Assembly: GCF_003439925.1 (NCBI RefSeq)
Contig: NZ_QQRR01000002.1
Coordinates: 496,001-560,000, forward strand
Reading direction: 5' to 3'
Length of the DNA: 64,000 nucleotides
Origin: Haloprofundus halophilus
GTDB taxonomy: Archaea; Halobacteriota; Halobacteria; Halobacteriales; Haloferacaceae
The notes below the pieces were generated by a model. That model searched no databases. It worked only from the letters and a program-made list of their open reading frames with translations, and was not told the origin of the DNA. Position 1 is the stretch's first letter. Every line of letters starts with the position of its first letter. The translations under genes and the position numbers were made by a program. Below are positions 56,194 to 59,597 of the stretch, one piece after another.

Positions 56194-57336
56194 ATGGACA
56201 TTACTGACATAGCACTCCAGGACTTCGTGGAGCTGGAGGCCGACACCCGACTCGGGAAGGTCCGGTCTGCGTTCGAGCGCGAGAACCCGAAGGGTATCAT
56301 CATCACCGACGACGGCGACTACGTCGGGGTGGTCGGCGAGAAGCAGTTGATTCAGTCGCACATCGAAGACAACACGAAGGCCGCCGCGTTGATGCGCTCC
56401 GCGCCGCGCATCGACCGTCACGAGGATGTCCGCGAGGCGTCGCGGATGCTCATCGAGGGTGACACCCAGATCGCCCCCGTCTACGAGGGCGAGAAGCTCT
56501 GGGGCATCATCACGAGCGACGCGATTCTCGAAGCCGTCCACGACAACCTGGACGCGCTCACCGTCGAGCAGATCTACACCGAGGACGTGGTGACGATTCG
56601 GGAGGAGGACCGCAACGGGCAGGCGATAAACCGCCTCCGCGAGAACGGTATCTCTCGACTGCCCGTCCTCAACGAGAACGGCCAACTCACCGGCGTGCTG
56701 ACGACGCACGACATCACCGAGTTCGTCGTCCGCAACGAGGCCCGTCAGGGAACCGGGGACCGGAGCGGCGATCTCGAACGGATGCTCGACCTGCCGGTGT
56801 ACGACCTGATGACGAGCCCGGTGTTCACGACGAACCCCGGCGAGTCGGTCAAAGATGCCGTCTCCCGGATGTTCGAGAACGACATCGCCGGGCTGGTCGT
56901 CACGCCGTCGGACAGCGACTCGGAGGTGCTCGGCGTCCTCACGAAGACGGACGTGCTCCGGGCGCTCACCTACACCGAGGAAGAGCAGATGGACGTCCAA
57001 ATCACGAACGTCGACCTGCTCGACACCGCCTCTCGGACCGAACTGGTCGAGAGCCTCACACAGGTGGTCGACAAGTACCAGGAGATGCAGGTCCACCACG
57101 CGCACCTCCGGTTCCACGAACACAAGGAGAAACTCCGCGGGACGCCGCTCATCCAGGCGCAGATCAGGCTCCGGACGAGCCACGGACAGGTCGCGGGCTC
57201 CGGGGAGGGCTACGGCGCGGAACACGCCTTCCGCGTCGCCCTCGACAAGCTCGAACGCAACGTTCTGGAGCTGAAGGGAATCAACGCCGACGAGCAGTAC
57301 CGCGGCCAGCTGCTGCGGAAGCTCGGCGAGCTATAA
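56194..57336 (+). CDS. Four-CBS-domain protein with HPF-like C-terminus
   Basis: 380 residues. Four CBS repeats occupy about 1-270 (two tandem pairs: ALQDFVELEADTRLGKVRSA; AALMRSAPRIDRHEDVREAS; EQIYTEDVVTIREEDRNGQA; VYDLMTSPVFTTNPGESVKD). CBS pairs bind adenine nucleotides. Residues about 270-380 (VQITNVDLLDTASRTELVES; RTSHGQVAGSGEGYGAEHAF) resemble a ribosome hibernation factor/S30AE fold. This suggests an energy-sensing link to ribosomes, which is inference. Confidence 0.75.
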   Translation: MDITDIALQDFVELEADTRLGKVRSAFERENPKGIIITDDGDYVGVVGEKQLIQSHIEDNTKAAALMRSAPRIDRHEDVREASRMLIEGDTQIAPVYEGEKLWGIITSDAILEAVHDNLDALTVEQIYTEDVVTIREEDRNGQAINRLRENGISRLPVLNENGQLTGVLTTHDITEFVVRNEARQGTGDRSGDLERMLDLPVYDLMTSPVFTTNPGESVKDAVSRMFENDIAGLVVTPSDSDSEVLGVLTKTDVLRALTYTEEEQMDVQITNVDLLDTASRTELVESLTQVVDKYQEMQVHHAHLRFHEHKEKLRGTPLIQAQIRLRTSHGQVAGSGEGYGAEHAFRVALDKLERNVLELKGINADEQYRGQLLRKLGEL

Positions 57337-57342
57337 AACGAC

Positions 57343-57389
57343 CTTTTGCGCTGCGCTCGGGCGACTTCGTCGCCCTCGCTCGGCAAAAG
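57343..57389 (+). terminator. Nested inverted repeats after the CBS gene, possible terminator
   Basis: CTTTTGC (57343-57349) pairs with GCAAAAG (57383-57389), with an inner stem GGGCGA/TCGCCC (57359-57375). The hairpin begins seven bases after the CBS gene stop, so it may end or protect its transcript; archaeal termination does not require a hairpin. Confidence 0.35.
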
Positions 57390-57441
57390 CTCGACCAAAA
57401 ACACTCCTCCTTCGCTTCACTTCGTTCCGCTCAGTCGTCGG

Positions 57442-57466
57442 TCGAAAATCGCGGAGCGATTTTCGA
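57442..57466. repeat. Perfect palindrome with 11-base arms
   Basis: TCGAAAATCGC, three bases GGA, then GCGATTTTCGA. Arms match fully. It lies near the left border of the low-GC segment and could be a hairpin, a protein-binding site or a scar of DNA entry. Confidence 0.8.
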
Positions 57467-57671
57467 GCACGTCGGGGCGAAGTTCCGACGGCGGCCCGCT
57501 CGCTCACTTCGTTCGCTCGCGGTAGAACAGTTGGGCTCCCTCGAAACCCTCAATTGGTAACAGAAACGCCGTGATGGATACAGAGGGTGTATTCAGTACC
57601 CGGTACGAGTTGGGACCAAAATTTATTCGAGAACAGTACATGTAGCGAATCGGAATCAAGTAGAACACCAA

Positions 57672-58589
57672 ATGAGCTCGAAATTCGAACCTGCTGATGA
57701 ACCCTACGACACCGGAGATGTCGTTCATATTCATGCGCCAGACCCCGAGTACGAGCACCGTTTCGGATGCGAAGTAATCGAGATACACTGCGATAGTAAA
57801 CCGACTGCAACGGTCGAAGACCACTCATACACTCTGTATGCGTACGGTGTCGAGTGCGAGCTAGATTCGAAATACCCTCACAAGCACCTAATCCCGTCAC
57901 CACGCGGATACCCAAACATCAACGACCTACTCGGTGAAACACCAATTAACGGGGAGGAGTTTTTTGGGAAGTTCAGACGCCCCGATCTTCAGCTAATAAA
58001 CAAGTACCTCACGTTAGTGGACGTTGAATCAGACCCGACGTTGGATTGGTTAAACGAAATCAGGAAGGGTGACGTGGACCGAATTAATTCCGTATTCGCT
58101 GAACTGTATCTTCTGTACTACCTGCGGGAAGTGTATGGTACGGAGCAGGTATCGATGAACGCGGCGCTTTCTGACGGCAGTGACTCGAAGGATTTTGACC
58201 TTCGGCTCACCACTGACGATCAGGATATCTGGATTGAGGTCACGAAACCCGATCATGCCTCGGTATTAGAAGGAGGGTTTGGAATGGGAACAAGGACAAC
58301 GAACTCGATTGATAGGAAACTCAAAAACAAGTTCGGGCCCGCCCGTGACGCGGTTAACGACGACGCGGTCTTGGTGCTCGCGGTTTATCAGGAGGAGCAG
58401 ATAACACAAAGTCTCGAAATCAAAAGGTGGTTTGAGGAGGATTACTACGATGTCGGCGATTTCTCAGACGGGTGGATAACGTTCACGTATATTGGCGACC
58501 CGGATTTCGAGTACCACGCATTCACTGAGAACGGTGCGTGTTGCAACGACGTAGTAAAGGCGTTAACCGAGGTTGAGGAACCTCGATAA
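57672..58589 (+). CDS. Unidentified protein on a low-GC island, possibly nuclease-like
   Basis: 305 residues. The N-terminal 75 residues (YDTGDVVHIHAPDPEYEHRF, then DHSYTLYAYGVECEL) look like a small SH3-like beta barrel. Later, KDFDLRLTTDDQDIWIEVTK resembles the D...E-x-x-K core of PD-(D/E)XK nucleases, preceded by the helical INSVFAELYLLYYLREVYGT. Codon use is AT-rich, unlike its neighbours, so it was probably acquired. No partner genes (methylase, transposase) accompany it. The family is not recognised and the nuclease reading is tentative. Confidence 0.6.
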   Translation: MSSKFEPADEPYDTGDVVHIHAPDPEYEHRFGCEVIEIHCDSKPTATVEDHSYTLYAYGVECELDSKYPHKHLIPSPRGYPNINDLLGETPINGEEFFGKFRRPDLQLINKYLTLVDVESDPTLDWLNEIRKGDVDRINSVFAELYLLYYLREVYGTEQVSMNAALSDGSDSKDFDLRLTTDDQDIWIEVTKPDHASVLEGGFGMGTRTTNSIDRKLKNKFGPARDAVNDDAVLVLAVYQEEQITQSLEIKRWFEEDYYDVGDFSDGWITFTYIGDPDFEYHAFTENGACCNDVVKALTEVEEPR

Positions 58590-58729
58590 TACTTCCTATC
58601 AATCCTTCACGGACCCCTCTGATATTTGGTTTGGTCGGTGTGATGGATATGCGCCTTCTGTTCAGCACGACCGTCGAAACCTATCGTTGGGGGTTTTGAC
58701 AAAAGACCAAACAGCACCGCTCCGCCGCT

Positions 58730-59431
58730 TCAGAACTCTTCGGTCGCTTCCAGTCCCGACCCCGTAATCCGGAACGTCACGCTCTCCCCGGCGGCTTTCG
58801 CTCGGTGTTTCTCCAGCGTCGCCCGGCGGTTGCCGCCGCGGAAGCGGTCGAGTCGGACGACGACGCCGGTCCAGTGTTCGAGCGTGTTGCCGCCGAGCGC
58901 CCGCGTCCGGTCGGTGTCGGGGTCGGTGAACACCTGGTTCGTCAGCACGACGGCGATGTCGTGTTTTCGTGCCAGAGAGAGCAGATGCGTCACCTGTCGG
59001 GCGACGCGACGGAGCGATTCGCCGCTCTCTCCGCCCTCGATAGTACGTTCGAGGCGGTAGAACCCGGTGGCGCTGTCGAGGACGACGAGGTCGGCTCTGT
59101 CGGCGAACTCCTCGGCGTCGCGGACGGCCTCCTCCTGTTCGGCGAAGTCGTACGCCTCGGTGACGATGACGCGGGAGGCGACGTCCTCGAACGCCTGCTC
59201 GTCGTCCGTTCGGGCCTCGACTAACTGGCGAAACCGGTCGATGGAGAGCCCCTCGGTGTCGATGTAGACGACGGTGCCGCCGGCGGCGGCGACGTCGACG
59301 GCCGCCGACAGGGCGACGTTCGTCTTCCCCGCCGCCGGTGCGCCGTACACCTGCGTCACGGTCCCGCGTTCGAGACCGCCCCCGAGCAGGTCGTCGAGCG
59401 GCGCACACCCCGTCGAGAGTGTTTCGGTCAC
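58730..59431 (-). CDS. radB: DNA repair and recombination protein RadB
   Basis: 233 residues, the short archaeal RecA/RadA paralogue. LSTGCAPLDDLLGGGLERGT starts the core; Walker A is GAPAAGKT (30-37), Walker B LVVLDSATGF; the C-terminal ALGGNTLEHWTGVVVRLDRF is typical. It assists RadA recombination. GTG 59431 is supported by the family start and by TTTTT 25-29 bases upstream (leaderless). Divergent from the next gene. Confidence 0.93.
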   Translation of the reverse strand: MTETLSTGCAPLDDLLGGGLERGTVTQVYGAPAAGKTNVALSAAVDVAAAGGTVVYIDTEGLSIDRFRQLVEARTDDEQAFEDVASRVIVTEAYDFAEQEEAVRDAEEFADRADLVVLDSATGFYRLERTIEGGESGESLRRVARQVTHLLSLARKHDIAVVLTNQVFTDPDTDRTRALGGNTLEHWTGVVVRLDRFRGGNRRATLEKHRAKAAGESVTFRITGSGLEATEEF

Positions 59432-59597
59432 ACTCGGCGTTGGCGCGGTCCCCGGAAAAAGACCCCGGTCCGGCCCCGAGACACGCGATATACGGTGTCC
59501 GACGAGGCGACCGACTGGGGCGAACCGCGTTCTCCAGAGCGCCTCGGTGCAGATCCGGAACTGCACTTTTTACTCCCTCGCGGTCCAACGAGACCCG
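59431..59597. promoter_or_regulatory. Divergent promoter region between radB and the RNase H-like gene
   Basis: Two T-rich boxes point outward: TTTTT on the minus strand at 59456-59460 (25 bases before the radB GTG) and TTTTTA near 59572-59577 (about 20-25 bases before GTG 59597). Both fit leaderless haloarchaeal promoters. Confidence 0.45.

Follow-up and report, generated by a model that had tools for sequence, protein, structure and literature searches.

The low-GC island between a gene with CBS stretches and radB in the window, the 64,000-nucleotide stretch of Haloprofundus halophilus DNA analyzed here, is probably an array with just one cassette, belonging to a cassette system of haloarchaea. 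Arrays of this system run START, cargo, (linker, cargo)n, END, and each linker pairs an R box with an L box lying 65–67 bp further on. Judged from the sequences, cassette arrays that are exchanged by a recombinase at the boxes offer the best explanation, and a likely one, of the observations presented below. The recombinase would act on boxes of the same class, R with R and L with L, cutting within their 7-bp spacers, so that arrays, plasmids and slots would trade cargos, or linkers. The process that we infer is site-specific recombination.

The original prediction described a low-GC island with one gene, and this description is accurate. The open reading frame is present, and GC content is 0.501 in the cargo gene and 0.493 in the stretch running from L box to R box, as compared with 0.666 in the remaining window, while GC3 is 0.585 in the cargo gene versus 0.895 in the CBS neighbor and 0.839 in radB. 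The segment 57601–58600 has a GC content of 0.494, below that of all 253 sampled 1-kb windows. The island was thus recognized correctly, but the cassette frame and the repeat boxes at its borders were missed; it is truly bounded by two such boxes, at 57577 and 58646 (Table 1). The gene was also said to be acquired and to stand alone, which agrees with the comparisons. It has no counterpart at the same place in four sister genomes, and the slot holds no partner gene, neither for immunity nor for defense. Full-length homologues are patchy, being found in 9 of the 392 genomes of the order (its own genome included), yet the protein is 75–84% identical between genera, as seen at four loci in a contig scan (Halolamina, Halorubrum, Halorussus and Halonotius). 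The TATA-like box TTTATT upstream of the gene is a putative promoter.

Table 1. Features of the cassette, its neighbors and the cargo protein. Nucleotide positions are those of the window.
Feature	Position	Strand	Description
Left neighbor, four CBS stretches	56194..57336	+	Conserved in all 5 genus genomes
START half-linker	57534..57598	+	Decayed tip GGGCTCCCTCGAAACCCTCA (cf. GGCTCTGTTGAAANCCTCA) leading into the L box
L box GATACAGAGGGTGTATTCAGTA	57577..57598	+	Left cassette border; arms GATAC and GTATTC; 7-bp spacer AGAGGGT
TATA-like box TTTATT	57622..57627	+	45 bp before the ATG, within the cassette
Cargo gene	57672..58589	+	305 aa, ATG start; ORF confirmed
R box GATATGCGCCTTCTGTTCAGCA	58646..58667	+	Right cassette border; 3 mismatches to consensus
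END half-linker	58646..58708	+	R box, then CGACCGTCGAAACCTATCG..., decayed tip TTTTGACAAAAGACC (cf. TTTCAACAGAGCC)
Right neighbor, radB	58730..59566	-	Conserved next to the slot in each of the four sister genomes
Cargo N-terminal domain	residues 1-79		Small; also found as a stand-alone protein
Cargo protein after residue 79	residues after 79		Candidate PD-(D/E)XK-like domain, from the alignment and a low-confidence model

The slot was compared in five Haloprofundus genomes, namely that of the window (G000) and its sisters G001–G004, of which G003 appears to be H. salinisoli (plasmid NZ_CP083664.1) and G004 H. halobius (NZ_CP083667.1, NZ_CP083668.1). The frame between the CBS gene and radB is fixed in these genomes and encloses five different cargos. 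BLAST end-points give a slot of 592–1089 bp in G001–G004, with conserved ends and a middle that is unrelated from genome to genome. Measured from stop to stop, the cargo frames have 82 aa in G003, 117 aa in G001 and about 168 aa in G002; that of G004 has 157 aa and lies on the opposite strand. The left conserved part stops, and the right one starts, in the two boxes of Table 1, which are related and share the form GATAC-7 bp-GTATTC. The window L box has one mismatch to the consensus and is the sole match in the window, with none in 100 shuffles. The START and END parts were identified by comparison with the canonical START and END elements of other arrays; between them, both decayed, lies one cargo and nothing more. 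Some further features of the slot surroundings were observed. The cargo of G004 is a CBS-domain-like protein in its own right, on the other strand (slot loci L068-L071), and the left neighbor (56194–57336) has a weak match to an S30AE ribosome-hibernation domain (E 0.012, below the cut-off). The intergenic stretch at 57385–57530 is rich in palindromes and has many similar copies in the genus; in each of the five genus genomes, a 1.5-kb query matched 16 to 34 times, mostly at this stretch.

Both borders are also recovered by a linker model, R1, built from 48 other linkers with the window left out. In a search of 220 kb, R1 matches 57542–57598 at model positions 40–96 (E 4.5e-8) and 58640–58683 at model positions 3–46 (E 6.9e-4). 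Detection of both borders by a model trained on other loci argues against a history in which a lone AT-rich gene came to a passive hotspot by ordinary lateral transfer and the boxes had no part in its acquisition. Such an origin, which is already strongly disfavored and which we consider very improbable, would account for those homologues that lie, free of boxes, on plasmids or in plasmid-like surroundings. Indeed, the homologues in Halolamina, Halonotius and Halorussus and on two plasmids have no adjoining box, indicating that the window gene also spreads by other routes. It would not account for the fact that the same borders hold four other cargos, one of which is also present in arrays, or for the retention of the START element with a homologue in Halorubrum vacuolatum. 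In the latter, an 80% identical homologue of the window gene lies behind its own START element, with 94 bp from the L box to the ATG as compared with 95 bp in the window.

Boxes and linkers recur across the genus. When up to three mismatches are allowed, the L pattern has 3 copies in G000, 6 in G004, 4 in G002, 11 in G001 and 12 in G003 (control, 0 in all five), and the R pattern has 20, 40, 6, 60 and 40 copies in the same order (control, 1 in all). At G001:C1:55263-92299, the sites are arranged as a directed array. A set of 21 array regions was chosen since pattern searches showed sites there, and for this reason the densities in them are not genome averages; they contain 76 R-to-L pairs within 30–110 bp, with 71 at 66 bp, four at 67 bp, one at 65 bp and none at other distances. 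For nine of these regions, the block-shuffled control yielded no linkers and a single R box, versus 70 linkers and 154 R boxes in the real sequence. Linkers are about 85–98 bp long and reach tens of copies per genome. At the settings used, 107 R boxes are without an L partner versus 92 with one. Medians over 114 cassettes are 800 bp for length and 0.51 for GC content, similar to the cassette of the window, and the listed coding sequences between linkers occupy both strands in a gene table that is incomplete. No known RNA family reached the gathering score in four array loci. START and END half-linkers terminate the arrays and carry GGCTCTGTTGAAA as inverted tips.

The tips bear on a different interpretation, in which the linkers would be MITE- or SMR-like elements, small and mobile, that landed between older genes, the R-int-L unit would be the autonomous parent transposon, and the cassettes would be mere intervals. 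The short R-L unit looks like an internally deleted copy of an R-int-L parent, and among terminal boxes, tips like the ends of insertion sequences are present on 13 of the 73 L boxes and 29 of the 107 R boxes, versus 0 of 81 and 0 of 92 in linkers. Repeats of this kind have a precedent in the SMRs of Haloquadratum, described as about 110 bp long with inverted ends (PMC3119063). An origin as mobile repeats is nevertheless unlikely given the order of the arrays: 70 linkers lie in 9 of the 21 regions and have a single orientation in eight of the nine, the ninth containing two sets in opposite orientation (8 and 3 linkers), and none of 25 linkers breaks a listed coding sequence. Homologous cassettes are alike up to the boxes, yet their linkers and neighbors differ, and at the CBS-radB slot it is the cargo, not the linker, that is exchanged. 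As for the tips themselves, the inverted pair GGCTCTGTTGAAA / TTTCAACAGAGCC (e.g. L163:16880-16944 and L150 near 7340) looks like insertion-sequence ends, perhaps of an IS6-family-like type, and the tip letters also adjoin a transposase-like frame in L043, just past the homologue of the window gene.

Exchange by a recombinase at the boxes, the preferred explanation, is reflected in the movement of cassettes. Among the 114 cassettes, 13 homologous pairs occupy different places. One pair involves adjacent cassettes (32 with 88 and 89), and its cargo is uninterrupted in cassette 32 where a linker is found at 88 and 89, a single instance of the kind that, in larger numbers, would favor an origin as mobile repeats; the others are single cassettes with differing neighbors. 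For 7 of the 9 pairs tested and for both slot comparisons, the left breakpoint is no more than 6 bp from the start of the L box; the two remaining pairs either have similar linkers or are uninformative in this test. By an ungapped test, which fails if there are indels near the R box, the right breakpoint is inside this box for 2 of 7 pairs and for both slot comparisons. At the other five right ends, the ungapped test failed or overran the box, and gapped alignments support an R-box end in some only. The slot cargo of G003 offers the clearest example; it is 86% identical to a cassette in a chromosomal array of G001 and 90% identical to one in a plasmid array of G004. The match spans L box to R box, with breaks at L -5 in both and at R +14 and +9. 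The breakpoints are resolved to the box and not to the spacer because the box bases are conserved in all copies.

A candidate for the recombinase is encoded in the linkers themselves, some of which carry a gene for a 234-aa tyrosine recombinase in place of the usual short core. On plasmid unnamed1 of H. halobius, this gene is enclosed by an R box at 80468 and an L box at 81275, and G003 has a 92%-identical copy in a like position, its R box damaged. The protein matches PF00589, and the expected catalytic set (with residue names that we take to be the standard ones) is kept in 17 intact copies, H-x-x-R being Y-x-x-R in one. Relatives with E <= 1e-30 are found in 78 of 392 genomes and 41 of 95 genera of the order. 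Around the 30 best matches, an R box is located upstream at 18 loci, an L box downstream at 14 and both at 12, whereas a shuffled control gave an R box upstream in 12 of 3000 and an L box downstream in 3 of 3000. Haloarcula marina NZ_CP100405.1 displays the entire arrangement in one direction, consisting of the recombinase, an L half-linker, cargos with five linkers and a terminal R half-linker; the cargos include a metal-transport ATPase and a rubredoxin-like gene.

Without any dedicated recombinase, cargo could also be swapped by homologous recombination among dispersed copies of the linker, making the slot a site of repeat-mediated gene conversion. The length and copy number of the linkers given above would permit such events, and a close copy of the linker recombinase (E <= 1e-30) is missing from three of the five genus genomes (G000, G001 and G002). 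The window genome is one of these, and the recombinase would therefore come in trans, or was lost. This alternative has a low probability in our estimation, as the breakpoints gather in the 22-bp boxes and not along the linker, the inverted arms and spacer of the boxes have the form expected of tyrosine-recombinase sites, and a tyrosine recombinase does lie between boxes at the 12 loci noted above.

The cassette system is widespread among haloarchaea. R1 matches 319 of 392 haloarchaeal genomes and 78 of 95 genera (E <= 0.001) in a survey that scored at most 10 places per genome, and many of the matches are full-length linkers while part are half-linkers. Across 246 genomes of the phylum, all 38 with an R1 match are in the order, and none of the listed genomes related at phylum level alone has one, in a listing that leaves out 188 non-matching genomes. 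A viral collection contains one R box, at L207:10785-10805 (IMGVR_UViG_2554235474_000003), the only exact match there.

A close parallel among known systems is the integron. As described by Ghaly et al. 2022 (PMC9668308), integron gene-cassette arrays likewise have a tyrosine recombinase, one-way repeated sites that separate mostly single small genes, arrays with and without the recombinase gene, and cassettes common to several genomes. One mark of an integron is present here, namely cassettes, mostly of one gene, set in a directed array and separated by repeated sites. Other marks were looked for and rejected. The linker recombinase is not IntI, as it scores 15.4 and 20.1 bits with TIGR02249, for which the cut-off is 265. 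An attC-type hairpin is not seen in the linkers: 48 of the 76, chosen by hand for alignment A4, align gap-free with conserved sequence, and their consensus structure has 2 pairs at -0.34 kcal/mol. When single linkers were folded against shuffles, one of three was better (z -4.98) and two were not (z -0.51 and -0.08). Promoterless cargo in one orientation, as in integrons, is at odds with the coding sequences listed on both strands in the incomplete gene table. Integrons have attI beside the recombinase gene, whereas here this gene is between boxes, and unlike in integrons, cargo and linker exchange separately. The system is not classified as an integron because IntI and the attC fold are lacking, cargos lie both ways, the recombinase is between boxes, and cargo and linker have separate histories. 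With its directed arrays, tyrosine recombinase and exchangeable single-gene cassettes, it appears to work like one.

It is about an even chance that a broader interpretation holds, namely an order-wide haloarchaeal exchange system that is parallel to integrons and not descended from them. Cargos and linkers would be separate modules joined at two box classes, with the recombinase gene inside a linker, slots of the CBS-radB type would be stocked from chromosomal and plasmid arrays, and the cargo of the window slot would be a new putative PD-(D/E)XK family with a shifted Lys.

Parts of this picture have been encountered in earlier work. The archaeal integrons of Ghaly et al. 2022 come from MAGs of nine phyla, and 'halo' is absent from the text (PMC9668308). 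Deletion-coupled insertions in Haloquadratum walsbyi resemble the slot in that unrelated DNA occupies the exact same chromosomal position in related haloarchaea; Dyall-Smith et al. 2011 (PMC3119063) report no conservation of border sequence in 64 cases and describe no mechanism, whereas the borders here are conserved boxes. In the same paper, haloarchaeal SMRs and MITEs are, like linkers, about 100 bp long, transposase-free and present in many copies per genome, but SMRs target IS605-type palindromes, whereas linkers sit between cargo genes in directed arrays (PMC3119063). The pR1SE, HSTV2 and SNJ2 families are PF00589 recombinases confined to haloarchaea and their elements, as is the case here, and 'cassette' is absent from the review on archaeal tyrosine recombinases that covers them (Badel et al. 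2021, PMC8371274). No description of a haloarchaeal cassette system was found in the set of open PMC papers and excerpts that was consulted.

If exchange holds, it would provide a defined engine for much of the single-gene variation and many low-GC islands in haloarchaea, with boxes, linkers and recombinase open to assay, and would supply a testable account of how unrelated DNA is swapped at fixed haloarchaeal positions. It would constitute a second route to arrays of integron type, one that uses neither IntI nor the attC hairpin, and would list small cargo genes for functional screening, defense included. The question for the window gene would become the contents of the cassette pool, and not the arrival of one nuclease-like gene.

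The cargo protein had been proposed to contain a PD-(D/E)XK nuclease core, for which the evidence is mixed. The motif FDLRL...WIEVTK is present at residues 175–192, and E144, D174, D176, E189, K216, E241 and Q246 are invariant in all 15 rows of an alignment in which two rows are the same protein. The lysine of the motif, in contrast, is not conserved: K192 (E+3) is Lys in 12 of the 15 rows and Tyr in 3 (two of the three being the same protein), the corresponding residue is Arg in a more distant 555-aa relative, and the spacing from E189 to K192 is E-x-x-K, with Thr, Met or Val at E+2. K216 lies on the helix after the E189 strand and is Lys in every row; if the protein is a PD-(D/E)XK enzyme, K216 may be the better lysine candidate. 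Two structure predictions have mean pLDDT values of only 37.7 and 37.9, and the latter displays the helix-strand-strand-strand-helix-strand order of the PD-(D/E)XK fold. This order and the retention of E144, D176, E189 and K216 are consistent with a nuclease, while family searches, the PDB and fold prediction provided no confident match. The protein has no family in Pfam, NCBIfam, PADLOC or PHROGs and no significant match in the PDB, and hhalign against one HsdR_N protein gave 0.2%. The best family matches among 15 homologues are Peptidase_A6 (0.014) and the SfsA RE domain (0.24), in one row each. A role in defense had also been suggested; PADLOC models gave no family up to E 5, and nothing links the protein to defense. 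A PD-(D/E)XK-type DNA-acting enzyme, perhaps defensive, is the most likely function, although the assignment is tentative.

Viral relatives of the cargo protein were not found, and plasmids carry three homologues, of which two have a query coverage of 80% or more. The N-terminal domain, about 75 residues, stands alone in many haloarchaea (L010-L014, L025-L038) and C-terminal forms are found in two further genomes of the order, from which it follows that the cargo protein is modular. In G144, a cargo-type N-terminal domain constitutes the C-terminal end of a 293-aa protein. The 555-aa protein (L031:1231-2898) has an E-helix...D...W-[IV]-E-[IV]-T-[KR]-P-D core as in the cargo protein (hhalign 93%, E 3e-7).
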